DNA of 64,000 bases, from assembly GCF_004365705.1 (NCBI RefSeq), contig NZ_SOBN01000002.1:124001-188000 (forward strand). Reading direction: 5' to 3'. Under the pieces are notes generated by a model. The model was given only the letters and a program-made list of their open reading frames with translations. It was not told where the DNA came from and did no database searches. The number at the start of each line of letters is the position of its first letter. The stretch's first letter is position 1. Positions 5,168 through 60,653 of this stretch are shown piece by piece. Source of the stretch: Streptomyces sp. 846.5 (GTDB lineage Bacteria > Actinomycetota > Actinomycetes > Streptomycetales > Streptomycetaceae). A program made the position numbers and the translations under genes.

Positions 5168-5217
5168 CCGACTGCAGGGCCGGTCGCCCCGGCCGGAGCC
5201 GTCCAGCCGGAGCCCTG

Positions 5218-22441: not shown

Positions 22442-25117
<2,676 letters not shown>

Positions 25118-37323: not shown

Positions 37324-37368
37324 GAACTCCTGCGTCCGACGGGACCCGGCGGCTGGGGCAGGCAAATG

Positions 37369-37461: not shown

Positions 37462-38181
37462 ATGCCGGAGAGCACCGAAGAAGCCACATCCAAGAGGCCC
37501 GTCCGGGTCTTCCTCCTGGACGACCACGAAGTGGTGCGACGCGGTGTGCACGACCTCCTGGACGCCGAGCCCGACCTGGAGGTGGTCGGCGAGGCCGGTA
37601 CCGCCGCCCAGGCCCTGGCCCGGGTTCCCGCCCTGCGCCCGGACGTGGCGGTCCTGGACGTGCGGCTGCCGGACGGCGACGGGGTGAGCGTGTGCCGGGA
37701 ACTGCGCTCGCAGCTGCCGGGGCTCGCCTGCCTGATGCTGACCTCCTTCGACGACGAGGAGGCCCTGCTGGACGCGATCATGGCAGGCGCCTCCGGCTAC
37801 GTCCTCAAGCAGATCACCGGCACCGACCTGGTCGCCGCCGTGCGCACGGTCGCCTCCGGCCAGTCCATGCTCGACGCCGGCGCCACCACCCGGCTGATGG
37901 CCAGGATGCGCGGTGACGCTGTCAAGGGCCAGCAGCCGACCGACGCACTGTCGGCCCTGACCGAGCGTGAGCGCGAGATCCTGGCCCTGATCGGCGAGGG
38001 ACTCACCAACCGCCAGATCGGCCAGCAGCTGTTCCTGGCCGAGAAGACGGTCAAGAACCACATCTCCCGTCTGCTGGCCAAGCTCGGCGTGGAGCGCAGG
38101 GTCCAGGCCGCGGTCATCGCCACCCAGACCAGCGAGCAGGCCGCACACGACGCCTCGGTGGCCGGCCGCCCCCGCGCGTGA
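37462..38181 (+). CDS. devR: DevR/DosR-like NarL-family response regulator
   Basis: The 239-residue protein has a receiver domain (residues about 14-130) with acidic pocket Asp20-Asp21, phospho-acceptor Asp66 ([11 protein letters not shown]), Thr94 and Lys116. A LuxR-type helix-turn-helix follows ([40 protein letters not shown]). It closely follows mycobacterial DosR, including DDHEVVRRG and [12 protein letters not shown] precedes the ATG. It is convergent with the DevS-like kinase (30 bp between the ends), unlike mycobacteria, where the two are co-transcribed. It is probably the regulator of the palindromes in this window. Confidence 0.88.
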
Positions 38182-38211: not shown

Positions 38212-41950
<3,739 letters not shown>

Positions 41951-44082: not shown

Positions 44083-44856
44083 TCAGTACGCCTTCAGTCC
44101 GTGGTCGCGGAACTGCCCGCGCACGCGCTCGACCAGGTCGGTGTCCGGCAGCGGGGTGTCGGCCAGCGGGAAGGGGATGCCGAGGGCCTCGTACTTGGGG
44201 GCGCCCAGCTTGTGGAAGGGCAGCACGTCGACCTGTTCGACGTTGCCCAGACCGGCCACGAACCCGGCCAGGCCCTCGATCGCCTCCACGTCGTCGGTCC
44301 AGCCCGGGACCAGGACGTAGCGGATCCGGGTCGGGACGCCCAGACGGTTCAGGCGGGTGGCGAAGTTGAGCGTGGGTCCCAGTTGACGGCTGGTCAGTTT
44401 CCGGTAGGTGGCGAGGTCGAAGGACTTGATGTCGAGCAGGACCAGGTCGGTGTCGGCGAGCAGCCGGTCGTCGGCCGCGGCGCCGAGGAAGCCCGAGGTG
44501 TCCAGAGCGGTGTGCAGTCCCTGTTCCTTGCAGCGACGGAGGACCTCGGCGGTGAAGGCGTGCTGGAGCAGCGGCTCGCCCCCGGTCAGGGTCACCCCGC
44601 CGCCCGCGGCCCGGACGAACGCGGCGTGCCTGCCGATCAGCTCCATGACCTCGTCGACGCTCATCGGCGTGCCGTCCCGCATGTGCCAGCTGTCCGGATT
44701 GGCGCAGTACAGGCAGCGCAGCGGGCAACCGGACAGGAAGAGCACGAACCGGGTCCCGGGCCCGTCCACACCGGTGGACAGGTCCCAGGAGTGGATCCGG
44801 CCCGTCGGCACCACGCCCGTCGGCGCCTCGCCAGCCGTCACGACGCCTTCCATCAC
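44083..44856 (-). CDS. pflA: pyruvate formate-lyase activating enzyme
   Basis: The 257-residue radical-SAM enzyme has the cluster motif C44-x3-C48-x2-C51 ([10 protein letters not shown]). The SAM-binding glycines [13 protein letters not shown] and DTSGFLG follow, with VLLDIKSFD and the C-terminal [17 protein letters not shown]. It places the glycyl radical on PflB. Its GTG start overlaps the pflB stop (GTGA), and an ATG follows immediately. No FocA-type formate channel is present nearby. Confidence 0.94.
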
Positions 44857-47117
44857 AAAGCGCCGTGGAAGGTGCGACTGATCACGTCGAGCTGCTGCTC
44901 GCGGGTCAGCCGGACGAAGTTGACGGCGTATCCGGAGACCCGAATGGTCAGGTCCGGGTAGTTCTCCGGGTGCTCCATGGCGTCCTGGAGGGTGAACCGG
45001 TCCAGCACGTTGACATTGAGGTGGTAGCCGCCGGACGCGGTGTACGCGTCGAGGATGCCCACCAGGTTGCCGGCCCGCTCGGCCGGGTCGTGGCCGAGGC
45101 CCTCGGGAGTGACCGTGGAGGTCAGCGAGATGCCGTCACGTGCCTGGTCGTACGGGATCTTCGCCACCGAGAGGGCTGAGGCGGCCATGCCGTGGCGGTC
45201 CCGGCCGTTCATCGGGTTGGCGCCGGGCGCGAAGGGGGCTCCGGCGCGGCGGCCGTCGGGGGTGTTGCCGGTGTGATTGCCGTAGACCACGTTGGAGGTG
45301 ATGGTGAGCACCGACTGGGTGTGCACCGCGCCCCGGTAGGTCGGGTGGCGGCGTACCTTGGCCATGAAGGAGCGCACCAGTTCCACCGCGATCCCGTCGG
45401 CCCGGTCGTCGTTGTTGCCGTACGCGGGGTAGTCGCCCTCCACGGCGTAGTCGACGGCCATGCCGCTCTGGTCGCGGATCACCTTGACCCGGGCGTACTT
45501 CACGGCGGACAGGCTGTCGGCGGCCACCGACAGGCCGGCGATGCCGCAGGCCATCCAGCGGTGCACCGGGTAGTCGTGGAGTGCCATCTCCAGGCGCTCG
45601 TAGGCGTACTTGTCGTGCATGTAGTGGATCACGTTGAGGGCGTTGACGTAGAGCTCGGCGAGCCAGTCAAGGGTGCGGTCGTAGGCGGCGTACAGCGTCT
45701 CGTAGTCCAGGTACTCCCCCATCAGCGGGACCGAGGGCGGGGCGACCTGGACGCCGCTGACCTCGTCGCGCCCGCCGTTGACCGCATACAGCAGGGCCTT
45801 GGCCAGGTTCACCCGGGCGCCGAAGAACTGCATCTGCCGGCCCACCCTCATCGCCGACACGCAGCAGGCGATGGCGGTGTCGTCACCGGTGACCGGGCGC
45901 ATCAACTCGTCGGACTCGTACTGGATCGAGGAGGTGTCGATGGACACCTGGGCGCAGAACCGCTTGAAGGGCTCGGGCAGGCGCGGCGACCACAGCACGG
46001 TCAGGTTCGGCTCCGGGGCCGGACCCAGGTTGTAGAGGGTCTGCAGGAACCGGAACGAGGTACGGGTGACCAGCGGGCGGCCGTCCTCGCCGATGCCGCC
46101 GATGGACTCGGTGACCCAGGTCGGGTCACCGGAGAACAGGGCGTCGTACTCCGGGGTCCGCAGGAACCGCACGATCCGCAGCTTGACAACGAAGTCGTCG
46201 ACGAGCTCCTGCGCCTGACGCTCCGTCAGCAGACCGGCGTCCAGATCGCGCTGGAGGTAGACGTCGAGGAAGGTGGAGGTACGGCCCAGCGACATGGCCG
46301 CGCCGTTCTGCTCCTTCACCGCGGCGAGGTAGCCCAGGTAGAGCCACTGGATCGCCTCGCGGGCGGTGGCGGCGGGCCGGGAGACGTCGCAGCCGTAGCC
46401 GGCCGCCATCTGCTCCAGTTCGCCCAATGCCTTGATCTGCTCGGCGAGCTCCTCGCGGTCGCGGATGACCTCGGCGGTCGAGTCGTGGTGGTCCAGCCGG
46501 GCGCGTTCGGCTCGCTTGGCCAGGATCAGGGCGGTGGTGCCGTACAGGGCGACGCGCCGGTAGTCGCCGATGATCCGGCCGCGGCCGTAGGCGTCGGGCA
46601 GTCCGGTGACGATCCCGGCCTTGCGGGCACGGAGCATCTCCGGGGTGTAGGCGTCGAAGACACCGTCGTTGTGGGTCTTGCGGTACTGGGTGAAGACCCG
46701 CTCCAGCTCCGGCGGCACCGGGTAGCCGTAGGTGGCCAGAGCTCCCGCCACCATGCGCCAACCGCCGAAGGGCATGATCGCGCGCTTCAGCGGGGCGTCG
46801 GTCTGCAGGCCGACGATGAGTTCGCGGTCACGGTCGATGTATCCGGGCCGGTGCGCGGTGATCGTGGAAGGAGTGGTGGCGTCGATGTCCAGGACACCCT
46901 TGCGCCGCTCCTCCGGGAACAGCGCGGTGATCCTGCCCCACACCGCGGCGGTGCGCACGGTGGGCCCGGCCAGGAAGGTGCCGTCGCCCTCGTAGGGGGT
47001 GTAGTTGGCCTGGATGAAGCCGCGAACGTCGATCCGCTCGCGCCAGGCGGTGCCGGTGAAGCCGCGCCAGGCGTCCTGCGTGGATCCGGTGGTCGGACGG
47101 GTGGCCGTGGTCGTCAT
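44853..47117 (-). CDS. pflB: formate C-acetyltransferase (pyruvate formate-lyase)
   Basis: The 754-residue glycyl-radical enzyme converts pyruvate + CoA to acetyl-CoA + formate. The catalytic pair Cys418-Cys419 ([11 protein letters not shown]) matches E. coli numbering, and the radical site is Gly729 in [15 protein letters not shown] precedes the ATG. The enzyme is oxygen-sensitive, so expression only makes sense in oxygen-poor cells. It is translationally coupled to pflA. A DosR-type palindrome lies 112 bp upstream. Confidence 0.95.
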
Positions 47118-47229
47118 GACTGCTCCTGTGATGGGGATCTTCGATCGCTCGGCGCGGCTGGTTCTGGCCTCTGCGGTCCATCGTCGCCTCGCGCGGGACA
47201 TCAGCAGCAGTGCCCACCGGGCCCTTCCC

Positions 47230-47244
47230 GGGTCCGTTGGTCCC
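47230..47244. promoter_or_regulatory. DosR-type box, 15-bp form
   Basis: GGGTCCGTTGGTCCC lies 112 bp before pflB on the minus strand. Confidence 0.5.
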
Positions 47245-47282
47245 TACCGGCGGACGGCCGAACGGATCATCCGCCGCCCAGG

Positions 47283-49928
47283 TCAGGCGCGGTTGCCGTA
47301 GTACGCCTGACGCATCAGCTGCCGCATGTCCGCGAGCATCGGCATCCGCGGGTTGGCGGGAGCGCACTGGTCCTCGTAGGCGTTCATCACCTGCTGCGGC
47401 AGGGCCGCGATGAACGCGGTCTCCTCCACGCCCGCCTCCTTGAAGGAGGCCGGGATGCCGACCCGCTCGCGCAGTTCCTCCACGGCCACGGCCAGGGACT
47501 CGACGCCCTGCTCGGGCGTGGCGGCGGCCAGGCCGAGCATCCGGGCGATGTCCTGGTAGCGCTGCGGTGCGATGTAGTGCCGGTACTTGGGCCAGCCGGT
47601 GACCTTGGCCGGCTCGGTGCCGTTGTAGCGGATGACATGCGGCAGCAGCAGGGCGTTGGTGCGGCCGTGGGCAACGCCGAAGGTTCCGCCGAGGGTGTGC
47701 GCCATGGCGTGGACCACGCCGAGGAAGGCCGAGCCGAAGGCCATCCCGGCGATGGTGCCGGCGTTGTGCATCCTCTCCCTGGCCTCCAGGTCGTGCGTAC
47801 CGTCGGTGACGGCCCGCTCCAGGTTCTCGAAGATCAGGCGGATGCCGTGCAGGGCCAGCCCGTCGGTGAAGTCGTTGGCGTACACCGACACATAGGTCTC
47901 GATGCAGTGCGTCAGCGCGTCGAAACCGGTGTCGGCGGTGACGGCCCGCGGCAGGCCCGTGGTCAGCGCCGGGTCGCAGATCGCGACGCTCGGGGTGAGC
48001 GCGTAGTCGGCCAGCGGGAACTTCTGGCCCGTCCGGGTGTCGGTGATGACCGCGAAGGGGGTGACCTCGGACCCGGTGCCCGAGGTGGTCGGTATGCACA
48101 CCAGCTTGGCCTTCACACCCAGGTCGGGGAAGGTGAAGGCACGCTTGCGGATGTCGAAGAACTTCTCCTTCAGGTCCGCGAAGTCGACCTCCGGGTGCTC
48201 GTACATCAGCCACATGACCTTGGCCGCGTCCATCGGCGAGCCGCCTCCCAGCGCGATGATGGTGTCGGGCTGGAAGCCGTGCATCAGCTCGGCGCCCCTG
48301 GCGACGGTGTCGGTGCTGGGATTGGGCTCGACGTAGTCGATGACCCTCACCTCGCACGGTTCGCTGCGCCGGTCCAGGATGGTGCGGATCCGCTCCAGAT
48401 GGCCGATCTCGACCATGGTGCGGTCGGTGACGACAACCACCTTGTGGACCTCGCGCATGTCGGCCAGGTAGGTGGTGGAGTTGCGCTCGAAGAAGATCCT
48501 CGGCGGGACCTTGAACCACTGCAGGTTGGTGTTGCGGCGCCCGATCCGCTTGATGGTCAGCAGATGGGAGGCCGTGACATTGCCCGCCACCGCGTTGTGC
48601 CCGTAACTGCCGCAGCCCAGCGTGAGCGAGGGCGGGAAGGCGTTGTAGACGTCGCCGATGCCGCCCTGCGAGCTGGGCGCGTTCCAGACGATCCGGCACG
48701 CCTTGACGGCATGGCCGAACTCCTCGACCAGCGCGGCGTCCTCGGTGTGGATGGCGGCGCTGTGGCCGAGGCCGTGGAACTCGACCATCTGCGCCGCGAG
48801 CCGCAGGCCCTCGCCGCGGTCAGCGGCGCGCAGCACGGCCAGGACCGGGCAGAGCTTCTCCCGGGTCAGGGGCTCGTCCCGGCCCACCTCGGAGACCTCG
48901 GCCAGGATGATCGAGGTCTCCGGCGGGACGGTGAAACCGGCGGCCTGCGCGATCTCCGCCGCCGAGCGGCCGACCACGGCGGCGTTCAGCGCGGCTCCGG
49001 CGCAGTTCCGGTCCGGTCCCGTGCCGAAGAGGTGGCGCTCCAGGGCGGCCTTCTCGTCCGCGGTCGCCAGATGGGCCTTGAGGGTGCGGAACTCGGCCAG
49101 TGCCGCGTCGTAGATCTCCGCGTCCAGGATCACCGCCTGCTCGGAGGCGCAGATCATGCCGTTGTCGAAGGACTTGGACAGCACGATGTCGTTGGCCGCG
49201 CGCTTGAGGTCGGCGCTCTGCTCCACATAGGCGGGGACGTTGCCCGCGCCCACGCCCAGGGCGGGCTTGCCGCAGGAGTAGGCGGCCCGCACCATGGCGT
49301 TGCCGCCGGTGGCCAGGATGGTGGCGACCCCCGGGTGGTTCATCAGCGCCGAAGTGGCCTGCATCGACGGCCGCTCGATCCACTGCACGCAGTGCTCCGG
49401 GGCGCCTGCGTTGACCGCCGCGTCACGTACGATCCTGGCCGCCTCGGCAGAACAGCGCTGCGCGGCGGGGTGGAAGCCGAACACGATGGGATTGCGGGTC
49501 TTCAGCGCCATCAGCGCCTTGAAGATGGTGGTGGAGGTCGGGTTGGTCACCGGTGTCACCCCCGCGACGACACCGACCGGCTCGGCGATGTCCACGATCC
49601 CGTCGATCTCGTCACGGCGGACCACCCCGACCGTCTTCAGGCCGGCCATGGAGTGGGCGATGTTCTCGCAGGCGAAGACGTTCTTCACGGCCTTGTCCTC
49701 GAACACCCCCCGTCCGGTCTCCTCCACGGCCATCGCCGCCAGCCGGGTGTGCGCGGCGAGCGCCGCCAGCGACGCCTTCTTCACGATGCAGTCCACCAGC
49801 TCCTGGCTGAAGTCGGCGTACTCGTCCAGCGCCGCCAGGGCGTTGCGAACCAGGGAGTCCACCTCGTCCACGACATAGTCCGGGGTGTCGGCGGGCGCGT
49901 CGGCGAGAACCTGCGGGGACCGGGGCAT
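47283..49928 (-). CDS. adhE: bifunctional acetaldehyde-CoA/alcohol dehydrogenase
   Basis: The 881-residue AdhE reduces acetyl-CoA to ethanol with 2 NADH. The N-terminal aldehyde dehydrogenase half has nucleophile Cys260 (FDNGMICASEQAV) and GVGAGNVPAYV. The C-terminal iron-type alcohol dehydrogenase half has GGGSPMDAAKVMWL, TTSGTGSEVTPFAV, and metal ligands in DALTHCIE, GVVHAMAHTLGG and VAHGRTN. It matches the usual 870-890 residues. It stands 165 bp upstream of pflB, so the two probably have separate promoters. Confidence 0.95.
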   Translation of the reverse strand: MPRSPQVLADAPADTPDYVVDEVDSLVRNALAALDEYADFSQELVDCIVKKASLAALAAHTRLAAMAVEETGRGVFEDKAVKNVFACENIAHSMAGLKTVGVVRRDEIDGIVDIAEPVGVVAGVTPVTNPTSTTIFKALMALKTRNPIVFGFHPAAQRCSAEAARIVRDAAVNAGAPEHCVQWIERPSMQATSALMNHPGVATILATGGNAMVRAAYSCGKPALGVGAGNVPAYVEQSADLKRAANDIVLSKSFDNGMICASEQAVILDAEIYDAALAEFRTLKAHLATADEKAALERHLFGTGPDRNCAGAALNAAVVGRSAAEIAQAAGFTVPPETSIILAEVSEVGRDEPLTREKLCPVLAVLRAADRGEGLRLAAQMVEFHGLGHSAAIHTEDAALVEEFGHAVKACRIVWNAPSSQGGIGDVYNAFPPSLTLGCGSYGHNAVAGNVTASHLLTIKRIGRRNTNLQWFKVPPRIFFERNSTTYLADMREVHKVVVVTDRTMVEIGHLERIRTILDRRSEPCEVRVIDYVEPNPSTDTVARGAELMHGFQPDTIIALGGGSPMDAAKVMWLMYEHPEVDFADLKEKFFDIRKRAFTFPDLGVKAKLVCIPTTSGTGSEVTPFAVITDTRTGQKFPLADYALTPSVAICDPALTTGLPRAVTADTGFDALTHCIETYVSVYANDFTDGLALHGIRLIFENLERAVTDGTHDLEARERMHNAGTIAGMAFGSAFLGVVHAMAHTLGGTFGVAHGRTNALLLPHVIRYNGTEPAKVTGWPKYRHYIAPQRYQDIARMLGLAAATPEQGVESLAVAVEELRERVGIPASFKEAGVEETAFIAALPQQVMNAYEDQCAPANPRMPMLADMRQLMRQAYYGNRA

Positions 49929-50026
49929 GGGACGTCTCCAGGGGGCGTCGGGCAGGGAGGACCAGAGCGATCCGTCTGATCCTTTCGAACGGCTCCAGCC
50001 TCCCGCGGCGTGATCGTCCCCAGCGA

Positions 50027-50040
50027 CGGCCGAAGGTCCC
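50027..50040. promoter_or_regulatory. DosR-type box
   Basis: CGGCCGAAGGTCCC lies 98 bp before adhE. The same sequence precedes the nitroreductase at 28146. Confidence 0.55.
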
Positions 50041-50093
50041 TGCCCGTGGGGCTGAAGGGCACCTCCCGGTCCCCGCACGGCTTTCGCCGCAGC

Positions 50094-51068
50094 TCAGGTA
50101 CGTACTGGGGCCGAGGCCCCGACGGCCGCCGTCGCCTGTGGCGAGCGACTGCCCCGGTCCGGACGGATCAGGGTGCCGGTGGTCCCGAGCAGGATGCCGA
50201 GGGCGTCGTCGAGGGGGCCGATGCCCGCGATGCCGCCGGTGCGTTCGACGAAGGCCGCGGCGGCCTCGGCCTTGGGCCGCATGGAGCCCTCGGGCAGCTC
50301 CAGGGCGCGCAGCTCGGCGGGGGTCGCGGTGAGGACCGGGCGGGCGTGGTGGGTGCCGTAGTGGCTGAACACATGGGTGACGTCGGTGAGCACGAGCAGG
50401 ACGTCCGCGTCGAGCTGCTCGGCGAGCAGGGCCGCGGTCCGGTCCTTGTCGATCACGGCCTCGACGCCGCGCAGCAGACCGGTGTCGACGTCCCTGACCA
50501 CGGGCACTCCCCCGCCCCCGGCGCAGATGACCACGGTCCCCTCCGCCAACAGCGCGCGGACAGTCGGCGCCTCCAGGACGGAGCCGGGCCGGGGCGAGGG
50601 GACGACGCGGCGCCAGGAGTCGCCGTCGGCGGCCAGCGTCCAGCCGCGTTCGCGGGCGAGCCGGTCGGCCACGGGCTTGGTGCAGGTCTGGCCGATGAAC
50701 TTGGTGGGGTGCTGGAACGCGGGGTCGGCGGGGTCGACTTCGGTGTGGGTGACCAGGGCGACCACGGTCCGGTCCGGGAGCCTGTTGCGCAGTTCCCGGG
50801 CCAGCAGGGTGCCGATCATGCCCTGGGTCTGGGCGCCGAGGAGGTCCAGGGGGTAGGGGGCCGCCAGGGCGCGGTCGTCCTCGCTCTCCAGGGCGAGCAG
50901 GCCGATCTGCGGGCCGTTCCCATGGGTGACGATCAGCTCGTGGCCGGCCAGGGCGAGTTCGGCCAGCGTGGTGGCGGCCTGGTGCACGTGGACTGCCTGG
51001 ACGGTGGCGTCGGGGTGCTCGCCCCGTTGCAGGAGGGCGTTGCCGCCCAGTGCGGCGACGATGCGCAT
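50094..51068 (-). CDS. arcC: carbamate kinase
   Basis: The 324-residue enzyme turns carbamoyl phosphate + ADP into ATP + NH3 + CO2, the energy-yielding step of the arginine deiminase pathway. Motifs are AALGGNALL, ELIVTHGNGPQIGLLA, TKFIGQTC, AGGGGVPV and AVIDKDRTAALLA. Its ATG stands one base after the arcB stop. It is the last gene of the arcDABC operon. Confidence 0.94.
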   Translation of the reverse strand: MRIVAALGGNALLQRGEHPDATVQAVHVHQAATTLAELALAGHELIVTHGNGPQIGLLALESEDDRALAAPYPLDLLGAQTQGMIGTLLARELRNRLPDRTVVALVTHTEVDPADPAFQHPTKFIGQTCTKPVADRLARERGWTLAADGDSWRRVVPSPRPGSVLEAPTVRALLAEGTVVICAGGGGVPVVRDVDTGLLRGVEAVIDKDRTAALLAEQLDADVLLVLTDVTHVFSHYGTHHARPVLTATPAELRALELPEGSMRPKAEAAAAFVERTGGIAGIGPLDDALGILLGTTGTLIRPDRGSRSPQATAAVGASAPVRT

Positions 51069-51069
51069 C

Positions 51070-52071
51070 TCAGGCTCCCAGGGTGGCGACGAGCACGGCC
51101 TTGATGGTGTGCATGCGGTTCTCGGCCTGGTCGAAGACCAGGGAGGCGGGCGATGCGAAGACCTCGTCGGTGACCTCCAGGCCGTCCAGCCCGTATTGGG
51201 CGAACAGGTCCGCGCCCAGGGCGGTGCTGCGGTCGTGCAGGGCCGGCAGGCAGTGCAGGAACGCGGTGTCCGGGTTGCCGGTGGCGGCCAGGGTCTTGGC
51301 GTTGACCTGGTAGGGCAGGAGCTGGGCGATCCGCTCGGCCCAGGTGTCGGCGCTCTCGCCCATGGACACCCATACGTCGGTGTAGAGGTAGTCCGCGCCG
51401 TGCACGGCCTGCTCCACCTCCTCGGTGAGGGTGATCCGCGCGCCGCTGGTCGAGGCGAGGTCGCGGCAGCGGGCGACCAGGGTGTCGGCGGGCCACAGTG
51501 TCCTGGGGGCGGCGATGCGCACGTCCATGCCCAGCAGGCTGCCCATGGCCAGCAGCGAGTTGGCCGTGTTGTTCCTCGCGTCGCCCAGGTAGCAGTAGGA
51601 GATCTCGGTCAGCGGCTTCTCGCTGTGCTCGCGCATGGTGAAAACGTCGCACAGGCTCTGGGTGGGGTGGCACCGGTCGGTCAGCCCGTTGTAGACCGGG
51701 ACCCCGGCGTGGGCGGCGAGGGTGGTGACGGTCTCCTGGGCGAAGCCGCGGTACTCGATGCCGTCGTACATCCGCCCCAGCACGCGGGCGGTGTCGGCGA
51801 CGGACTCCTTGTGCCCCAGGTGGGAACCGTCCGGGCCGAGGTAGGTGGTGCTGGCGCCCTGGTCGGCGGCGGCGACCTCGAAGGCACAGCGGGTGCGGGT
51901 GGACGCCTTCTCGAAGATCAGGGCGAGGTGGCGGCCGGTCAGGCGCGGGGTCTCGGTGCCGTCGCGCTTGGCGGCCTTGAGTTCGGCGGCCAGGTCCAGG
52001 AGGTGGTGGATCTGCTCGGCGGTGAAGTCCAGCTCGTCCATGTAGTGACGGCCGGTCAGGTCTGTGGTCAT
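51070..52071 (-). CDS. arcB: ornithine carbamoyltransferase, catabolic
   Basis: The 333-residue enzyme has the carbamoyl phosphate motif [16 protein letters not shown], the HPTQ loop ([13 protein letters not shown]) and [10 protein letters not shown]. In this operon it would work in the catabolic direction, phosphorolysing citrulline to ornithine and carbamoyl phosphate. It lies between the deiminase (46 bp upstream) and carbamate kinase. Confidence 0.92.
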
Positions 52072-52117
52072 CGCAGGCTCCGGGAGATCGTGGTGGGCGG
52101 GTGCGGTCGGGCGGGCT

Positions 52118-53341
52118 TCAGTTGGCCGGGTCGCGCTGGATCGGGCAGCTCATGCAGCGCGGTCCGCCGCGCCCGCGCCCGAGTTCGGCGCCGGCGATGG
52201 TGACGATCTCGATGCCCTGCTTGCGCAGGTAGGTGTTGGTGGTGACATTGCGTTCGTAGCCGACGACCACGCCCGGCGACAGCGCCAGGAAGTTGCTGCC
52301 GTCGTCCCACTGCTCGCGTTCGGCGGCGCGCACGTCCTGGACCGCGGACAGGAACCTGACCTTGTCCAGGTCCAGCGCGGTGGCCAGCGACGACGCGAGG
52401 TCGGTGTCGGGGGTGACCTCGAAGCCGGTGGGCTGTCCCGTGCTGGGGGTGAGGGTCCAGGAGCGCAGCGAGTCGGCCAGCCCGGGGTAGACGGCGAACG
52501 CATCCCTGTCGATCATGGTCATCACCGTGTCGAGGTGCATGAACGCGCGGCTGCGCGGCAGCCGAACGGCGATCAGGCGGTGCGCGGCGCCGGTGGCGAA
52601 CAGCCGCTGGGCGAGTTCCTCGACGGCCTGCGGGGTGGTTCGCTCGCCCATGCCGACCATCGCGACGCCGGGAGCCAGCGAGTGGACGTCGCCGCCCTCC
52701 AGGGTGGTGCCCGGTACCGCGCCGGTGCCGTCGATCAACGGCGCCGGGGTACCGGCGAACAGCGGGTGGAAGCGGTAGATCGCGGCGCTGTGCAGGGTCT
52801 CGCGGCGCCGGGCGGGCTTGGCCATCGGGTTGACGGTGTACCGGTCGCCGATCCAGCAGGAGTTGTCGCGCGGGAACAGGTGGTTGGGCAGCGGCGGCAG
52901 CGCGAAGTCCTGCTCGCCGAGCTGGTTCCAGACCAGGCTGTGCGGGTTGGCGATCTGCAGGTCGTCCTTCAGGACACCGCCGATGAGGTACTCGGCCAGG
53001 GTCGACGCGTCCAGCTCCTGGCACAGGGCGCGAACCGGGTCGACCAGGGCGGGGCCGACCGTGCCGGGGGCGACGACCCGGTCGACGAGCCAGGTACGGG
53101 CCTCGGGCAGGTCCATGGTCCGGGCGAGGAGTTCGGCGTAGTAGTGGACGCGCACGCCGTGGTCGCGCAGCACCTGGGCGAAGGCGTCGTGCTCCTCGCG
53201 GGCGCGCTTGGCCCACAGGATGTCGTCGAAGAGCAGCTCGTCGACGTTGCGCGGGGTCAGCCGGGCCAGTTCCAGGCCGGGGCGGTGCAGGACGACCTGG
53301 CGCAGGCGGCCGGTCTCGGAGTCGACACGAAGGACGGACAT
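52118..53341 (-). CDS. arcA: arginine deiminase
   Basis: The 407-residue enzyme hydrolyses arginine to citrulline and ammonia. It has the guanidino-modifying fold motifs [28 protein letters not shown], the catalytic His in [12 protein letters not shown], and the C-terminal catalytic Cys in [12 protein letters not shown]. The length is typical. It follows the antiporter gene by 40 bp and starts the enzymatic part of the operon. Confidence 0.95.
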
Positions 53342-53381
53342 GGTGGCTCCCTGTCAGAAGTGGTGCAGGACGGTGGGGTGG

Positions 53382-54923
53382 TCAGGCCGAGTGGCGGGGA
53401 CGCAGCGCGCGCCACAGCAGCTCCGGCAGACCGACCGGCCGGGTGGTACGAGCCGCGAGCTGGGCCGAAACCGGGGCCGGCGCGGTGTCCTTCGGCTCCG
53501 CGGCAGCGGCGTTGTCGGTACGGGCGGGGGCGGGCAGGGCGGTCTCGCCGTACTCGCCGCGGCCGCGCTTGAGCCAGATGTAGACCGGCACGCCGAGCAG
53601 GATCACGAACAGCCCATAGTAGACGGTCTGGTAGCCGCTGCCCTGGATGGACCAGTAGGAGAAGGCCAGGGCCAGGACGGTGACCGTCACGTCCCGGGCG
53701 AAGCGGCGCGGCGACAGGTCCCCGCGTCCGCGGACCACCAGCCAGTAGAGCTGCGCCGCGGCGGAGACCAGGTAGGGGATGACCGCGGTCAGGACGCTGA
53801 GCAGGACGATCTCGGTGAAGACCTTGGTGAAGTGGGTGTAGCTGATGACGGTGATCAGCGAGGCCAGGGCGGTCGCGGAGACGATGCCGAAGGCGGGGAC
53901 CTGCTTGGGTCCCACCGTCCTGGAGAACGCGGTCGGGAACAGTCCGTCGCGGGCCGCGGCCAGGGGCATCTCGGCGCAGATCATGGTCCAGCCGTTCAGG
54001 GCGCCCAGTCCGGAGATGATGGCGGCGACGGCCACCGCGTTGCCGGCCCAGGTGCCGCCGACGATGTTGTTGGCGGCGTCGGTGAACGGGGCGGTGGAGC
54101 TGCCCAGCGAGGCGTGCGAGACGGTTCCGAACACCGCCAGGGTGCCGAGGATGTAGATGACGGCGCAGGCCAGGGTCCCGTAGACGGTCGCCCGGGGAAC
54201 GTTGCGCTCGGGGTTGCGCACCCGGCCCGCGGCCACCGAGGCGGTCTCCAGTCCGATGTAGCTGAACAGGGCGATCGCGGAGGCGGCCGAGACGGCGCCG
54301 ATCGCCGAGGTGCCGCTGGCGTTGAAGGTGCCGAAATTCCCGGACTTCATGAACAGCAAGCCGATGCTGGCCATGAACACCAGCGGGATGAACTTCAGCA
54401 CCGTGGTGACCACCTGGACCGCGCCGATGTTGCGGATCCCGGTGAGGTTGACCAGAGCCGGGATCCACAGGCCGGTCAGGGCGATCGCGATCGATCCGGC
54501 GGTGTGGTGGCCCTTGTCGACGAAGACCTCGACGTAGCCGACCCAGGCGACCGCGATGGCCGCGTTCCCGGCCCATGCGGTGATCCAGTAGGACCAGGCC
54601 GTCAGAAAGCCGGCGAACTCGCCGAACGCCTCCTTGGCGTAGACGTAGGGGCCGCCGCTGCCGGGCACCCGCTTGGACAGCGAGCCGAAGGTCACGGCCA
54701 GGGCCAGCGCGCCGAGGGTCACCACGCCGAAGGCCACCAGCGCGATCGGTCCGAAGGGAGCAAGGGCCGAGGGCAGGGCGAACACTCCGGTGCCGATGAC
54801 GCTGCCGATGACGAGGGCGGTGGCGGCGGGCAGTCCGAAGGTCGACCGCCGGTCGGCCCCGGTGTCCGTCGCTGCCCCGCGTCCAGGCCCGGGGTGCGGG
54901 GTGGGGCTGCTGGCTCCAGACAT
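53382..54923 (-). CDS. arcD: APC-family amino acid antiporter, probable arginine/ornithine exchanger
   Basis: The 513-residue protein has about twelve helices. The APC motif is at the start (LPAATALVIGSVIGTGVFALPSAL), with GSGGPYVYAKEAFGEFAGFL. The ATG at 54923 has AGGAG seven bases before it; an upstream ATG at 54941 is less well placed. Being first in the arc operon, it should import arginine in exchange for ornithine. It is of the APC superfamily type (AdiC/ArcD2-like), and specificity is inferred from position. Confidence 0.88.
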   Translation of the reverse strand: MSGASSPTPHPGPGRGAATDTGADRRSTFGLPAATALVIGSVIGTGVFALPSALAPFGPIALVAFGVVTLGALALAVTFGSLSKRVPGSGGPYVYAKEAFGEFAGFLTAWSYWITAWAGNAAIAVAWVGYVEVFVDKGHHTAGSIAIALTGLWIPALVNLTGIRNIGAVQVVTTVLKFIPLVFMASIGLLFMKSGNFGTFNASGTSAIGAVSAASAIALFSYIGLETASVAAGRVRNPERNVPRATVYGTLACAVIYILGTLAVFGTVSHASLGSSTAPFTDAANNIVGGTWAGNAVAVAAIISGLGALNGWTMICAEMPLAAARDGLFPTAFSRTVGPKQVPAFGIVSATALASLITVISYTHFTKVFTEIVLLSVLTAVIPYLVSAAAQLYWLVVRGRGDLSPRRFARDVTVTVLALAFSYWSIQGSGYQTVYYGLFVILLGVPVYIWLKRGRGEYGETALPAPARTDNAAAAEPKDTAPAPVSAQLAARTTRPVGLPELLWRALRPRHSA

Positions 54924-54999: not shown

Positions 55000-55044
55000 A
55001 CACGGCGCCGGGCAGGGACCAGTGGTCCCTGCCCGGCGCCGTGT
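55000..55044. repeat. large inverted repeat in the arcD-USP divergent region
   Basis: Two perfect 22-bp arms (ACACGGCGCCGGGCAGGGACCA and complement, split by a single G) form a near-continuous 45-bp palindrome. At its centre is a DosR-type core. It lies within the 313-bp divergent promoter region, 76 bp before arcD. Confidence 0.85.
55015..55029. promoter_or_regulatory. DosR-type box, centre of the arc promoter palindrome
   Basis: GGGACCAGTGGTCCC is the copy closest to the mycobacterial GGGAC-GTCCC core. It lies 91 bp before arcD. A related palindrome with the GGTCCC/GGGACC halves reversed (AGGGTCCCTGTCAGGGACCT) is at 55065-55084. Confidence 0.65.
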
Positions 55045-55128
55045 GGTCCCGGTATCGGTGTCCGAGGGTCCCTGTCAGGGACCTACCGAACCCTTTCGGC
55101 GCGGGCCGGGACCACCGGCGCATGGCCG

Positions 55129-55142
55129 GGGCCGACCGGCCC
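55129..55142. promoter_or_regulatory. DosR-type box
   Basis: GGGCCGACCGGCCC lies 94 bp before the USP gene at 55237. It is identical to the boxes at 90 and at devR. Confidence 0.6.
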
Positions 55143-55236
55143 TGGCCGCTCGGCCCCGGCCGGAGAAGCCTGGAAGGGTGGGGCTCCCGGGTGTCACCCA
55201 CCTCGGCAGACTCGCCCCGTCAAGGAGGAGAACGCC

Positions 55237-56112
55237 ATGAAACGACCCGTGATCGTCGGCGTCGACGGCTCCGCGCAGAGCATCGCGGCCGCGCACTGGG
55301 CAGCGGACGAAGCGGTGCTCCGAGGCTCGCCGCTGCGCCTGGTCTACGCCGACCCCTGGCTTCGGGCGCTGCAGAACATCGACCGGCAGAACGGCGACGA
55401 GCGGGGTTCGGCCCTGCGCATGCTCGCCCAGGTGCAGGCCGAGCTCCAGGAGCGCTGTCCGACGCTCTCCATCGACCTGGCCCTGGTCCAGGGACAGGTC
55501 GTCGAAGCGCTGGTGAAGACGGCCCACGACGGCGAGATCACCGTTCTTGGATCGCGCGGACTGGGCGGCTTCGCCGAGCTGCTGCTCGGCTCCGTCAGCC
55601 TGGCCACCGCCGCCCGGGTCGACGTGCCGCTCATCGTGCTCCGTCCCGGGACGGGACCGGGAACCGAGCAGCAGCGCACTGCCACGTCCCAGATCCTGGT
55701 GGGCCTGGACGCCTACGACCCCTCCGAGGCGGTCCTGGACTTCGCCTTCGCCGAAGCCGCCCTGCGGGGCGCCCGGATCCGGGTCGTGCACGGCTGGGCC
55801 CTCCCGCCGAGCTGGTCCTCCCTCGGTTGGACGCCGCCGCTGGTACAGACCCCGGACCTGGAGGCTGCCGAGGCCGCCCAGCTCGCGAAGGCGATGCTCA
55901 GCTGGCGCGACAAGTTCCCCGACACCGAGGTCGCCGAGGCCGTACGCCTCGGCGGTGGGGCGGCGGCGCTGGTGGAGGCCTCCGACCGGGCCGACCTGGT
56001 CGTGGTCGGTCGCCGGGCCCGCCCGCACGGCGCCGGCCTGCGCCTCGGGGCGGTCGCCCACGCGGTGCTGCACCACGCCAAGGCTCCGGTCGCCGTCGTC
56101 CCGCACCCCTGA
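55237..56112 (+). CDS. universal stress protein, tandem domains
   Basis: The 291-residue protein has domain 1 with VDGSAQSIAAAHWAADEA and an intact ATP signature (GSRGLGGFAELLLGS). Domain 2 (ILVGLDAYDPSEAVLDFAFAEAA) has the changed loop GRRARPHGAGLRLGA and HHAKAPVAVVPHP. A GGAGG-type ribosome site precedes the ATG. It is monocistronic, closed by a strong terminator. Confidence 0.92.
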   Translation: MKRPVIVGVDGSAQSIAAAHWAADEAVLRGSPLRLVYADPWLRALQNIDRQNGDERGSALRMLAQVQAELQERCPTLSIDLALVQGQVVEALVKTAHDGEITVLGSRGLGGFAELLLGSVSLATAARVDVPLIVLRPGTGPGTEQQRTATSQILVGLDAYDPSEAVLDFAFAEAALRGARIRVVHGWALPPSWSSLGWTPPLVQTPDLEAAEAAQLAKAMLSWRDKFPDTEVAEAVRLGGGAAALVEASDRADLVVVGRRARPHGAGLRLGAVAHAVLHHAKAPVAVVPHP

Positions 56113-56199: not shown

Positions 56200-57213
56200 T
56201 TACCGCAGGTCGAAGACCAGGCGCGCGGTCACCTTGCCGGCGAGCACCTCCTCGAAGCACGCGTTCACGTCCTCCAGGCGGCGGCTCTCGCGGATCACCC
56301 GGGTCCGGCCGAGAGCGTGCAGTCGGAACACCTCGGCCAGATCCTGCCGGGTGCCGACGATGGAGCCGACCACCGAGGTGCCGTTGAGGACGGTGTCGAA
56401 GACCGGCAGCTCCAGCTTCCCGCCGGCCGGCAGCGCGACCAGGACCAGGACTCCGCCGCGGCGCAGCGAGGCGTACGCGGCCTGGAACGAGTCGTTGCTG
56501 ACGGCCAGGGAGACGGCGGCATGGGCTCCCCCGAGCCTGGCCGTCTCGGCGGCCACGTCCTGGACCCGGGCGTCGATCACATGGTCGGCGCCCAGCTCAC
56601 GGGCCAGAGCCAGCTTCTCGTCGGTGACGTCCACCGCGACGGTCTCCGCTCCGGCGATCCGCGCGTACTGCAGCGCGAGGTGGCCCAGGCCGCCGATGCC
56701 GGAGATCAGCACCCGGGTGCCCGGACGCGCTCCGGAGAGCTTCACCGCCTTGTAGGCGGTGACGCCCGCGCAGCTCAGCGGGGCGGCGTCGAGCGGGTCC
56801 AGTCCCTGCGGCACCTTGACCACGTAGTCGCCGTGGGCCAGCGCGTACTGCGCATAGCCGCCGTCGACGGAGTAGCCGCTGTTGCGCTGTGCCAGGCACA
56901 GGGTCTCGCAGCCCGACACGCACTGGTCGCAGTGGCCGCAGGCCTCCGCCAGCCACGGGATGGCGACGCGGTCGCCGACCTCGACGAACCTGACCCGGTC
57001 ACCGACCGCCTCGACGATGCCGACGCCCTCGTGGCCGGGTACGAACGGCAGCGCGGGCCGGACCGGCCAGTCGCCGCGGGCGGCGTGGATGTCGGTGTGG
57101 CACAGGCCGCACGTCTCGATCCGGACCCGCACCTGCTGCGCGGCGGGTTCGGGCAGCGGGCGGTCCTCGATGACGAGCGGGGCAGTGAAGTCCCTGACGA
57201 CTGCGGCTTTCAT
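56200..57213 (-). CDS. adhP: AdhP-type zinc alcohol dehydrogenase
   Basis: The 337-residue enzyme has catalytic zinc motifs CGLCHTDIHAARGDWPV and PGHEGVGIVE, structural cysteines CGHCDQCVSGCETLC, the signature NSGYSVDGGYAQYA, and the NAD motif ISGIGGLGHLA. This pattern is that of ethanol-active AdhP. GGGAG precedes the ATG at 57213; a longer in-frame start at 57231 exists. It likely acts with AdhE in ethanol/acetaldehyde balance. A perfect DosR-type box lies 97 bp upstream. Confidence 0.92.
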   Translation of the reverse strand: MKAAVVRDFTAPLVIEDRPLPEPAAQQVRVRIETCGLCHTDIHAARGDWPVRPALPFVPGHEGVGIVEAVGDRVRFVEVGDRVAIPWLAEACGHCDQCVSGCETLCLAQRNSGYSVDGGYAQYALAHGDYVVKVPQGLDPLDAAPLSCAGVTAYKAVKLSGARPGTRVLISGIGGLGHLALQYARIAGAETVAVDVTDEKLALARELGADHVIDARVQDVAAETARLGGAHAAVSLAVSNDSFQAAYASLRRGGVLVLVALPAGGKLELPVFDTVLNGTSVVGSIVGTRQDLAEVFRLHALGRTRVIRESRRLEDVNACFEEVLAGKVTARLVFDLR

Positions 57214-57310
57214 GGCGTCTCCCATCGACACGGGTCAAGGCCCGCACCGGGTGGAGCGGGACCCCCGATCCCCTCCCCTCATCCCACCAGCCGCCGGCGC
57301 GGTCGATGGA

Positions 57311-58196: not shown

Positions 58197-58550
58197 GTGC
58201 CGGTGCCGTTGTACCAGGCGAAGGCGGAGTTCTTCAGGATGCTGGGGCATCCGGTGCGGATCCGGGTGCTGGAGCTTCTCCAGGACGGGCCGATGCCGGT
58301 GCGGGACCTGCTGGCGCAGATCGAGGTGGAGCGCTCCAACCTCTCCCAGCAGCTCGCAGTGCTCCGCAGGTCCGGGATCGTGACCGCCACCCGGGACGGC
58401 GACACCGTGGTCTACGCCCTGGCCGGCGGTGACGTGGCGGACCTGATGCGGGCCGCGCGCAGGATCCTGACGGAGCTGCTGGCCGACCAGCAGGACCTTC
58501 TGACGGAGCTGCGCGAGGCGGACCGGGAAGCGGTGGCGAGGAGCACGTGA
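58197..58550 (+). CDS. ArsR-family transcriptional regulator
   Basis: The 117-residue winged-helix protein has the family pattern FRMLGHPVRIRVLELLQDGPMPV, recognition helix VERSNLSQQLAVLRRSGIVTA and wing RDGDTVVYALA. It has no cysteine and one histidine, so the classical metal sites are absent; it may sense redox or a ligand by another means. The GTG start is preceded by AGAGGGG. Likely targets are the palindromes at 57952 and 60099, the latter in front of the hydrogenase-like operon. Confidence 0.88.
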   Translation: MPVPLYQAKAEFFRMLGHPVRIRVLELLQDGPMPVRDLLAQIEVERSNLSQQLAVLRRSGIVTATRDGDTVVYALAGGDVADLMRAARRILTELLADQQDLLTELREADREAVARST

Positions 58551-58605
58551 GTACCGCGAACGCGACCGGCAGGGCGCTGCCCGACTTCGCCGACGGAGCC
58601 GAGCG

Positions 58606-59079
58606 GTGACCCACCCCAGGCGCTGGCATCAGCCCCGCCAACCCACCGCCGCGCGTACCGAACCGGAGCACCGGCAGGCCGTACAGCAGCACACGCTCAC
58701 GCTGCCCAATACGGCGGCGTCGGTGTCGCTGGCCCGGCGCACCGCCCAGATGGCCTTCACCACCTGGGGCCTGCCCGCCACCAGCACCGTGGACGCCGCC
58801 CTACTCATCACCACCGAACTGGTCGCCAACACCGTCCGCCACGCCGCCCGGTCCCCGCAACTGGACCTGACCATCGCCCTGGACGCACAGCAGCTCACGA
58901 TCGCCGTCCATGACGAGGACCCGGTCCTGCCGCCCTGGCCGCCGACCGCCACCACCCCGGGAGGCCTGCGAGTGCTGGCGAACCTGATCCACCAGTGCGG
59001 CGGCCAGTTGAACCTGCACCCCGACTTCGCCGGCCGCGGCAAGACCGTCCGCGCCGCCCTGCCCCGAACCCCCGGCTGA
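58606..59079 (+). CDS. ATP-binding regulatory protein, anti-sigma kinase (RsbW) type
   Basis: The 157-residue protein has a GHKL ATPase fold: N-box ALLITTELVANTVRHAARSP, G1-like VHDEDPVLPPW, GGLRVLANLIHQCGG, then GRGKTVRAALP. Such stand-alone proteins phosphorylate STAS-domain antagonists and bind sigma factors. A STAS protein is encoded 512 bp downstream, so a partner-switch pair is possible. GTG start. Confidence 0.82.
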   Translation: MTHPRRWHQPRQPTAARTEPEHRQAVQQHTLTLPNTAASVSLARRTAQMAFTTWGLPATSTVDAALLITTELVANTVRHAARSPQLDLTIALDAQQLTIAVHDEDPVLPPWPPTATTPGGLRVLANLIHQCGGQLNLHPDFAGRGKTVRAALPRTPG

Positions 59080-59113
59080 CCCGCCCGAACGAACGACGAA
59101 GGAGAGGACGCCG

Positions 59114-59311
59114 GTGCGTTTCGAGGTCACCCACCACTTGCCGGGCCACAACGCCCCCACCACCACCCTGACCGACACCGACGGGGTCAACGCCCTACTG
59201 GCCCAGGCCGAGACCACCGGCGGCGCCCTGCACATCCGCCGCCACACCCCCGACCCGCAGCCCGAACCGGCCACCGCCGGGCAGGCGCCCGAAGGAGACC
59301 CGCGGCCATGA
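59114..59311 (+). CDS. small hypothetical protein
   Basis: The GTG start follows GGAGAGG. The 65-residue product (MRFEVTHHLPGHNAPTTTLT, then VNALLAQAETTGGALHIRR and a Pro-rich end) is a small alpha/beta protein of unknown family. It overlaps the next gene's ATG by 4 bp (ATGA), which supports it being translated. Confidence 0.65.
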   Translation: MRFEVTHHLPGHNAPTTTLTDTDGVNALLAQAETTGGALHIRRHTPDPQPEPATAGQAPEGDPRP

Positions 59312-59550
59312 CCGAACCCACCGGCGGTGCCCGACGCGACCTCGCGTCAGCGGACGCCGCCGCAGTCCTGGCGATGATCGCCGCCGCCGACACCGCAGCC
59401 GCGGCCCAGCAGGACGACGACGGCAGCGAGGGCGGCGGACGCCGCGCCAACAAGGGCGTCTGGATCCGGGCGGCGATCTACGTCATCGGCTTCCACGTCT
59501 TCGCCGGCTTCGTGATGCTCCTGTTCTACTTCGGCGGACACCACCACTGA
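59308..59550 (+). CDS. DUF6126 small membrane protein
   Basis: The 80-residue protein has an Ala/Asp-rich cytosolic part, then RANKGVWIRAAIYVIGFHVF and one membrane helix (AFVMLLFYF-like) ending GGHHH. This is the pattern of DUF6126 proteins in Streptomyces, whose function is unknown. It is coupled to the preceding 65-residue gene. Confidence 0.75.
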   Translation: MTEPTGGARRDLASADAAAVLAMIAAADTAAAAQQDDDGSEGGGRRANKGVWIRAAIYVIGFHVFAGFVMLLFYFGGHHH

Positions 59551-59591
59551 CCCTCCCTCAGCCACCCCATCGCCAGGAAAGCCGGCCGCGT

Positions 59592-60020
59592 ATGACGATC
59601 CAATGGCACTACGAGAACCGGCCCGGTGCAGGCGTCCTGTCCCTGACTGGCTATCTCGGCGACGAGGCCACCGCTCGCTTCGCCGGAGCCGTCGGCTGGG
59701 CCATCGCCCGCGGCGAGGGAGCGGTGATCCTGGATCTGACCGGGCTGCAGGGCTGGTCGCCCTGGGGCCGCGACTCAGTGGTGGCCGCCGCCTGGCGCCT
59801 GGCCGAACGCGGACGCCCGCTGGAACTGGCCGGACTGCCCGCCGACAGGGAGCCGTTCACCCCGCGCGCAGGGGACCCCGTGATTCGCCAGCACCCGGAC
59901 CTGGAAGCAGCACTGGCCGCCCACCCCTCCCCCGCAGTCGAACCCGACAGGCCATCGGGCGTCCCCCAGCGGTGGCGCTCGGCGGACTGGCACGACGCCG
60001 CTCCACCCGCTTCGCCGTGA
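59592..60020 (+). CDS. STAS-domain anti-sigma factor antagonist
   Basis: The 142-residue protein has a STAS fold: GVLSLTGYLGDEATARFAGA, AVILDLTGLQGWSPWGRDSV (the Ser here is at the usual phosphorylation position) and AERGRPLELAGLP. About 40 disordered C-terminal residues follow. It may be the antagonist partner of the ATPase protein at 58606 or of the PP2C regulator at 25153. Confidence 0.82.
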   Translation: MTIQWHYENRPGAGVLSLTGYLGDEATARFAGAVGWAIARGEGAVILDLTGLQGWSPWGRDSVVAAAWRLAERGRPLELAGLPADREPFTPRAGDPVIRQHPDLEAALAAHPSPAVEPDRPSGVPQRWRSADWHDAAPPASP

Positions 60021-60098
60021 CCGCACATCCCTGACTCCCCTTCACCCCTCGAACAGGACTGACGTCCATCACTGTGGCAGCTGACGACTGTCCACCAG

Positions 60099-60114
60099 TT
60101 GATAATGTCTTCAA
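60099..60114. promoter_or_regulatory. probable ArsR operator before the hydrogenase-like operon
   Basis: TTGATAATGTCTTCAA matches the palindrome at 57953-57968 at 12 of 16 positions, including both TTGA and TCAA ends. It lies 56 bp before the first hydrogenase-like gene. Confidence 0.55.
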
Positions 60115-60170
60115 TTCATCGAAGCCTGAACAACAACGCCTTCCAGCATGAAATGCGAGTCGAGGTCGCC

Positions 60171-60653
60171 ATGAGCCTGTTGCGCAAGATCCGCGGGACC
60201 GGACGCGTCGCCGAGCCCGCGCCACCACGCCCGACGGCCGTACCGCCGCCCGCGGCACGAGAGTTGGGCGGCTCGGCGCAGGTGCGGTGCGTGGACGCGG
60301 GGTCGTGCAACGGCTGCGAGATCGAGATCGGCGGCGCGTTCGGCCCGGTCTACGACGCGGAGCGGTACGGGGCGCGGCTGGTGGCCTCTCCCCGGCATGC
60401 GGATGTGCTGCTGGTGACCGGCCCGGTGACGCGGAACATGGCGGTACCGCTCACGTCCACGCTGGCGGCGATGGCGCAGCCGCGGCTGGTGGTCGCGGTG
60501 GGTGACTGCGCGCTGGGCTGCGGGGAGTTCGCCGGCGGCTACGGGGTCCAGGGCACGGTTGCCGATGTGGTGGCGGTGGACCTTCAGGTGCCGGGCTGTC
60601 CGCCGTCCCCGGACGCGATCGTGGCGGCGCTGCGTACCGTGACCGGCCGGTGA
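60171..60653 (+). CDS. hyfI: HyfI/NuoB-like iron-sulfur small subunit
   Basis: The 160-residue protein is the small subunit that holds the proximal [4Fe-4S] cluster in group 4 membrane hydrogenases. Cys46 and Cys49 (GSCNGCEIEI), Cys113/117 (GDCALGCGEF) and Cys143 (VPGCPPSP) are kept; the C-x2-C form is of hydrogenase rather than NuoB (CC) type. The ATG at 60171 has GAGG upstream; a longer in-frame start at 60099 overlaps the operator. It overlaps the next gene by 4 bp. Confidence 0.85.
   Translation: MSLLRKIRGTGRVAEPAPPRPTAVPPPAARELGGSAQVRCVDAGSCNGCEIEIGGAFGPVYDAERYGARLVASPRHADVLLVTGPVTRNMAVPLTSTLAAMAQPRLVVAVGDCALGCGEFAGGYGVQGTVADVVAVDLQVPGCPPSPDAIVAALRTVTGR

Follow-up and report, generated by a model that had tools for sequence, protein, structure and literature searches.

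What would a filamentous streptomycete gain from oxygen-sensitive fermentation genes? We addressed this question for a 64,000-nucleotide stretch of DNA from Streptomyces sp. 846.5 (family Streptomycetaceae; hereafter the window), which forms part of a 1.95-Mb contig in a 9.03-Mb genome. At positions 44083-54923 the window carries a single minus-strand run of seven genes, arcD-arcA-arcB-arcC-adhE-pflB-pflA (5' to 3'), in which all seven frames are open. The products are assigned to the arginine deiminase (ADI) pathway, to a bifunctional aldehyde/alcohol dehydrogenase and to pyruvate formate-lyase (PFL) with its activating enzyme. Our analysis makes it probable that the run is a working fermentation and arginine-catabolism module within a streptomycete OsdR (DevR/DosR-type) dormancy island. 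Neither the enzymes nor the OsdR island is new; what appears to be new is the make-up of the run, which presents itself as a mosaic of pflBA from an Osd-island lineage, adhE from an adhE-pflBA lineage and arcDABC nearest to the copies of genus mates.

Four of the products exceeded the cut-off of an NCBIfam equivalog model. These are PflA, a PFL-activating radical SAM enzyme (44083-44856; TIGR02493, 296 bits against a cut-off of 232); PflB, formate C-acetyltransferase (44853-47117, with a frame that can open at 47201; TIGR01255, 1143 against 994); AdhE (47283-49928, with a frame that can open at 50078; NF010378, 1343 against 951); and ArcB, ornithine carbamoyltransferase (51070-52071; TIGR00658, 400 against 281). 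The arginine deiminase ArcA (52118-53341; NF002381, 514 against 414) and the carbamate kinase ArcC (50094-51068; NF009008, 396 against 361) each passed one subfamily model. Scores fell below the cut-off for PflA with the narrower NF008356 (229 against 375), for ArcA with TIGR01078 (456 against 489) though not with NF002381, for ArcC with TIGR00746 (326 against 358) and for ArcB with three E. coli-like models, such as NF003286 (480 against 515). The ArcD-like APC antiporter (53382-54923, alternative start 54941) lay below the cut-off of all 25 NCBIfam models shown, including TIGR00905 (299 against 409) and the arginine-ornithine antiporter model TIGR03810 (212 against 591), so that its name rests on transporter family and position, from which its role is predicted. 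Successive gaps from arcD to pflA are 40, 46, 1, 165, 165 and -4 nt, and the base composition of the run is ordinary, like that of the rest of the window.

Alignment to solved structures showed that the catalytic residues of PFL and its activase are in place. Numbered from the 754-residue start, PflB retains the Cys418/Cys419 pair and the glycyl-radical Gly729 when aligned to E. coli PFL (1h16), and PflA retains the CxxxCxxC cysteines at 44, 48 and 51 (aligned to 3c8f). The alignment of ArcA (Cys396) to 1rxx reaches through the C-terminal cysteine region, and ArcB aligned over its full length to solved carbamoyltransferases, 9y83 among them. AdhE aligned to 6tqh across both halves; its NF010378 match spans residues 70-929 of the long frame, with both the ALDH and the Fe-ADH halves present. 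Since dN/dS against relatives is 0.17-0.58, the genes of the run look to be under purifying selection.

What might switch these genes on was evaluated with a position weight matrix (PWM) for OsdR/DevR-type boxes, built from 25 sites in Table 1 of PMC5069765, many of which are predictions by that paper's authors. With a line of 12 bits, chosen after the training scores (11.4-18.7) and the window scan had been viewed, the window holds 20 predicted boxes, compared with a chance expectation of 1.5 +/- 1.1 from six random order-2 Markov sequences. Nineteen of the 20 are intergenic in a window that is 17.5% intergenic, and 16 of the 20 lie 82-221 nt upstream of a called start. Within the run, a box of 18.65 bits (55128-55143) stands between arcD (at -213) and a divergent universal stress protein (usp) gene (at -101), one of 12.8 bits (50026-50041) lies 106 nt before the adhE start, and a weak one of 11.2 bits (47230-47245) lies 121 nt before the pflB start.

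The window also encodes a candidate regulator pair. The best solved match of the OsdR/DevR-type response regulator (37462-38181, plus strand) is DevR (3c3w, E 7.6e-80), and the gene has a box of its own at 37368 (18.65 bits, at -86). Beside it lies an OsdK/DevS/DosT-type GAF histidine kinase (38212-39906, minus strand, with a TTG start in a frame that opens at 41046), identified by matches to solved structures. Its GAF domain matches 2vzw (E 2.9e-52), which we take to be DosT, and DevS 2y8h (E 2.6e-47). Both matches include an HHPPM segment, presumably the site of the heme ligand, and the ATPase domain matches DosT 3zxq (E 2.7e-13). The enrichment of boxes in the window, together with this DevR/DevS-like pair, strengthens the idea that the run serves hypoxia.

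Besides the LuxR-type regulator and the GAF histidine kinase just described, the surroundings of the run include Usp and CBS-BON proteins, phosphoketolase, pyruvate phosphate dikinase (PPDK), the alcohol dehydrogenase AdhP and one protein each of nitroreductase type and of acyl-CoA-synthetase type. The gene divergent from arcD encodes a double Usp protein (55237-56112, plus strand; PF00582). Next but one to the run is adhP, a Zn alcohol dehydrogenase gene (56200-57213, minus strand; NF006940, 355 bits against 344) with a box at 57310 (21.75 bits, at -105). The phosphoketolase gene (30662-33025, minus strand; XFP domains) lies 11 kb away and has a box at 33163 (18.65 bits, at -146), and ppdK (22442-25117, plus strand; PF02896, PF01326 and PF00391) lies about 19 kb away. 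Strong boxes extend far beyond the run over much of the window, at 5217, 37368, 33163, 57310, 18836 and elsewhere. From its sequence, the region looks like one regulon island. An earlier note, made by reading this DNA by itself, had named the seven genes and their extent, the intact PflB residues, the nearby phosphoketolase, adhP and ppdK, and DosR-like promoters. All of these hold, with ArcD identified by family and position, and with the promoters borne out by the number of boxes, their recurrence in relatives and the OsdR/OsdK-type pair.

Recurrence was scored among distinct upstream sequences, each counting as a hit when a box scoring 12 bits or more lay within 350 nt. In the family, boxes precede osdR in 18/19 sequences, ppdK in 10/11, arcD in 8/12, phosphoketolase in 6/9 and adhP in 3/9. 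We sorted pflB and adhE into types A, B and C by identity bands (79 and 73.5%) chosen after the identities had been inspected; one locus, L125, was counted in band B here, though its surroundings and place in the tree are those of type A. A box precedes 21 of 38 type A pflB genes (the window's own counted as a miss), 2 of 21 of type B and 3 of 8 of type C, and 2 of 15 pflB genes in other actinomycetes. For adhE the figures are 13/36 for type B (the window's own counted as a hit) and 6/11 for type A. As controls, arcA inside the operon gave 0/33 and pflB of other phyla 0/51; outside the family, adhE gave 0/13 and osdR-like genes 0/3. Shuffled sequences had a box in 0 to 3.6% of cases. Boxes thus tend to stand at the head of a transcription unit, which is what one expects of a regulon, but many copies of pflB and adhE have none at 12 bits.

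Two other modes of control were considered and set aside: no Rex operator with two or fewer mismatches was found anywhere in the window, and the best FNR-type matches there carry two mismatches. Separately, GGGACC/GGTCCC palindromes stand before arcD at 55015-55029 and 55067-55083, with a spacing unlike that of an OsdR box; such a palindrome was seen in 1 of 12 relatives (L155).

The distribution of boxes bears on whether the run is one unit or several. It is conceivable, although we lean against it, that the seven genes form one operon driven solely from the arcD-usp region, the adhE and pflB boxes being chance matches or leftovers. The shared strand and the tight gaps inside arcDABC and pflBA would fit such an operon, as would the placing of the strongest box of the run at 55128, with just 12.8 and 11.2 bits before adhE and pflB. 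Against it, both 165-nt gaps flanking adhE contain a box at the usual spacing (-106 and -121), and boxes before type A pflB and before adhE recur in relatives. Our preferred reading is of three adjoining units, arcDABC, adhE and pflBA.

From these sequences we infer box binding, hypoxic induction, metabolic flux, the substrate of ArcD and the physiological purpose of the module, which could be connected as follows. At low oxygen or in the presence of nitric oxide (NO), the DevS/DosT-like heme-GAF kinase would activate OsdR by phosphorylation, and OsdR would bind the boxes before arcD, adhE and pflB and turn on all three units. The reactions of the ADI pathway, PFL and AdhE are established. ArcD, ArcA, ArcB and ArcC would convert arginine to ornithine, ammonia and CO2 with a yield of one ATP per arginine. 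PflA would form the glycyl radical on PflB, which would cleave pyruvate to acetyl-CoA and formate, and AdhE would reduce acetyl-CoA to ethanol, spending two NADH and regenerating NAD+. The likely use would be maintenance energy and redox balance for oxygen-starved mycelium or spores.

Several observations weigh against this proposal. The pflB box is weak and falls under the 12-bit line, and the strong arcD box is closer to the divergent usp gene. Boxes and islands are not strictly linked, given the counts of 21/38 for type A, 2/21 for type B and 3/8 for type C, which lies outside Osd islands. Copies decay in some lineages: of the 143 matches in the family, 9 are weaker or incomplete, and genus mate G003 retains only remnants. 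Streptomycetes are described as unable to grow anaerobically in the available text of PMC5069765. Finally, formate has no evident exit, because no FocA-type formate channel was matched in the genome and the large subunit of a neighbouring Hyf-like complex is broken. An IS110 element interrupts the gene for that subunit, and the NiFe RxCGxC cysteines are missing from the N-terminal fragment as aligned.

The genes in question, an ArsR regulator gene and behind it those of a membrane complex resembling NuoB/HyfB/HycD/HyfE/HyfF/HycE, occupy 58197-63735 in the window and run on to about 68.9 kb in locus L230 (window position = L230 position + 58999). We take its layout to resemble that of the Rv0081-Rv0087 locus of M. 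tuberculosis. A neighbouring formate hydrogenlyase as formate sink is disfavoured by the IS110 insertion and by the missing RxCGxC cysteines, an absence that concerns the N-terminal motif only. A search for formate dehydrogenase alpha (TIGR01591) gave no match over the cut-off in the genome. One protein (L237) belongs to the FdhF/YdeP family, and another (L236), judged by eye from the translated sequence, looks like an assimilatory nitrate reductase with a flavoprotein fused to it. A formate oxidiser encoded in the genome is therefore a possibility suggested by sequence.

Some of these points would suit a different use of the genes: a valve for pH, nitrogen and redox balance in mycelium that is micro-oxic yet still respires, with no stand-alone fermentation. 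ADI would then supply ammonia and some ATP, AdhE would drain excess NADH, and PFL would give formate or acetyl-CoA. The missing FocA-type channel, the lack of a NiFe motif in the aligned Hyf-like fragment and the reported inability to grow anaerobically (PMC5069765, available text) are in its favour, as is the occurrence of arcDABC without PFL in two genus mates, G001 and G012. Against this, AdhE matched at E=0 without PflB at E=0 in just 3 of 96 family genomes. PFL requires the near-absence of oxygen. The rarity of AdhE without PflB and the oxygen sensitivity of PFL together indicate an anoxic use, and we consider the valve improbable.

How widespread is the module? We searched 394 genomes drawn evenly from the larger family, compiling the lists of co-occurring genes by hand from match tables; of 584 confirmed stretches, the best 80 were taken. 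PflB matches were found in 143 of the 394, 134 at E=0 and 9 weaker or partial; a match at E=0 does not guarantee that the gene is whole, and PflB is truncated in at least three of the matches (G018, G021, G140). AdhE at E=0 was present in 96/394 (G083 being counted though matched in two pieces), 93 of them with PflB at E=0. Window-type ArcA, defined by at least 72% identity, occurred in 33/394, 26 of which have PflB at E=0 and all 26 also AdhE. ArcA matches of any kind occurred in 353/394, and beyond the 33 they are, among the matches listed, about 55-59% identical to the window's. In a separate sample of the class, 49 of 394 genomes had PflB (E<=0.001), 19 of the 49 being members of the family.

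These figures qualify two points raised in the earlier note. Its view that PFL is unexpected in such actinomycetes was overstated, in light of the 134/394 family and 49/394 class-sampled genomes and of the pflB annotated in Streptomyces rimosus, where the available text of PMC12243394 lists it as an NsdA ChIP target. Its suggestion to look in sister species met a divided answer: six of the 14 genus genomes compared have PflB (five full length, one as fragments), and the rest do not. Remnants of pflBA were seen in two loci of the genus, L144 (G003:C46), where the fragments share 83-86% DNA identity with the genes of the window, and L145 (G010:C4:1067600-1087500), a second remnant. That the run itself is an acquired relic or passenger, rarely expressed and heading for loss like the decayed copies of relatives (the 9/143 weaker or partial matches and the remnants in G003 and G010), is very unlikely in view of its seven open frames, intact catalytic residues, dN/dS of 0.17-0.58 and recurring boxes.

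Replacement of nitrate respiration by PFL across the family was also considered and rejected. NarG exceeded its cut-off in 99 of the 394 genomes, 42 of the 134 with PflB and 57 of the 260 without, pointing, if at all, to a slight positive association (Fisher p 0.05, with relatedness ignored in the Fisher tests). The window's genome gave no NarG match, an absence that concerns this genome.

We then asked where the parts of the run come from, using quick trees with SH-aLRT support only and approximately unbiased (AU) tests whose groups were named after the PflB and AdhE trees had been viewed. In the PflB tree (76 rows) the actinomycete sequences group together, except for a long-branched Coriobacteriia metagenome-assembled genome (MAG), L071. 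A recent transfer of PflB from a firmicute or proteobacterium is unsupported by this near-single actinomycete clade, and for the donor, which the earlier note had proposed to seek by phylogeny of PflB and AdhE, the PflB tree gave no sign of a recent one outside the actinomycetes. Two PflBs from Bacteroidales and Pyrinomonadaceae MAGs (L038, L039) fall inside the clade, through transfer or mis-binned contigs.

The PflBs of Streptomycetaceae fall into three groups. Group A sits mostly in Osd islands, group B usually comes right after adhE, and group C is mostly pflBA without either. We compared gene order by PflB type at 54 family loci of at least 10 kb, counting any Usp-type match among Osd-island genes and allowing that one species may occur twice (by name and by handle). 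Type A pflB is accompanied by Osd-island genes at 22 of 25 loci and is never directly behind adhE; type B is directly behind adhE at 14/21 and with Osd-island genes at 8/21; type C gave 1/8 and 0/8, respectively. Group A includes the window's pflB and pflA, whereas the four full-length copies of its genus mates are in group B. Vertical descent of the window pflB with those copies is rejected by the AU test (p 3.6e-5, 33 rows). The window AdhE lies instead in the lineage of group B operons, usually adhE-pflBA, nearest to G060 and G093, and joining it to the Osd-cluster AdhE clade is likewise rejected (p 2.1e-5, 27 rows). In G060 and G093, such an AdhE and a type A pflB are separated by about 8 and 6 kb and do not adjoin. 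The arcDABC genes are nearest to those of genus mates G001 and G012, at about 86% DNA identity.

Consistent with separate origins, DNA homology to relatives ends at 50092-50169, 49833-49867, 47283 and 47069-47082, positions that coincide with the edges of the 165-nt gaps or lie close to them. Alignments of DNA from diverged genomes tend to end at gene edges in any case, so the breaks carry weight only in combination with the trees and with the absence of such neighbours elsewhere. G271 and G332 have arcDABC directly before pflBA and no adhE. An arcC followed on the same strand by adhE within 1.5 kb was found at none of 165 other family loci, many of them only about 4-6 kb long and hence too short to span all seven genes, and an adhE start within 3 kb after arcA in none of 20 other genomes with both genes listed on one contig, the nearest being 4.4 kb away (G065). 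The simplest account is that the run was assembled from three promoter-bearing cassettes, arcDABC, adhE and pflBA, with separate histories. This modular descent suggests that membership of the regulon may travel with cassettes that bring their own boxes.

The setting resembles the OsdR/OsdK island of S. coelicolor (SCO0198-SCO0219) and the DevR/DosR regulon of M. tuberculosis, with a DevR-type regulator, a DevS/DosT-like GAF kinase and Usp proteins. Further likeness lies in the Zn alcohol dehydrogenase, PPDK, the nitroreductase-type protein and boxes that fit the published sites (PMC5069765). The cargo differs: Table 1 of that paper has NarG2 and no PFL, AdhE or ADI, whereas the window's genome gave no NarG match and has arcDABC-adhE-pflBA, and the words 'formate' and 'arginine' have 0 occurrences in its main text. 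The PflB-PflA pair and AdhE resemble the mixed-acid enzymes of E. coli and firmicutes, being of the same families over NCBIfam cut-offs and, for PflB and PflA, with aligned catalytic residues. They differ in being ADI-linked and provided with OsdR boxes, with no Rex operator at two or fewer mismatches in the window and no FocA-type match in the genome. The arcDABC genes match the known arginine deiminase operon in having four pathway genes in the order arcD-A-B-C, but here ArcD is below the arginine/ornithine antiporter cut-offs, and the window ArcA is of a lineage other than the ~55-59% identical ArcA that dominates the family's matches, among those listed.

Among the entries listed in the literature searched, with subscription papers mostly outside its scope, we found none that describes a PFL-AdhE-ADI module in streptomycetes or its control by OsdR. 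In the available text of PMC5069765, osdR is induced at low oxygen and by an NO donor. The available text of PMC5355995 terms Streptomyces obligate aerobes and names pflBA for S. aureus only, and the possession of anaerobic genes without anaerobic growth has been called an 'anaerobic paradox' (PMC5069765, PMC5489568, in the text available of each).

The run places oxygen-sensitive fermentation enzymes and ADI under what appears to be a streptomycete dormancy regulator. Since the key enzyme is present in about a third of the sampled family, the survival of such bacteria without air becomes testable. One genus includes both strains that have the module and strains that lack it, so what sustains mycelium during anoxia could be tested directly, and as this genome gave no NarG match, nitrate respiration of the NarG type should not obscure the outcome. 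A bolder proposal, to which we give little credence, is that around a third of the Streptomycetaceae are not strict aerobes as the term is usually understood and carry an OsdR-switched PFL, mostly with AdhE and in a subset with ADI, on exchangeable promoter-bearing cassettes. Strains with the full set, this one included, might then conserve enough energy, with neither oxygen nor nitrate, to grow slowly under anaerobic conditions or to survive actively in anoxia for months. If this were true, the paradox would be resolved for full-set strains.

Two minor observations concern other sequences. The PflBs of two distant class members (G470:C2:258735-261119 and G733:C1:725467-727836) matched in two pieces that apparently share one open frame. 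The pieces part at query residue 721, ahead of the glycyl-radical domain, and the 135 and 111 nt that separate them amount to an insert of about 40 residues. In the window, two stretches of a PAS-SpoIIE gene (26293-27003) both align to one and the same stretch in relatives, a pattern that a duplicated PAS domain would be expected to give.

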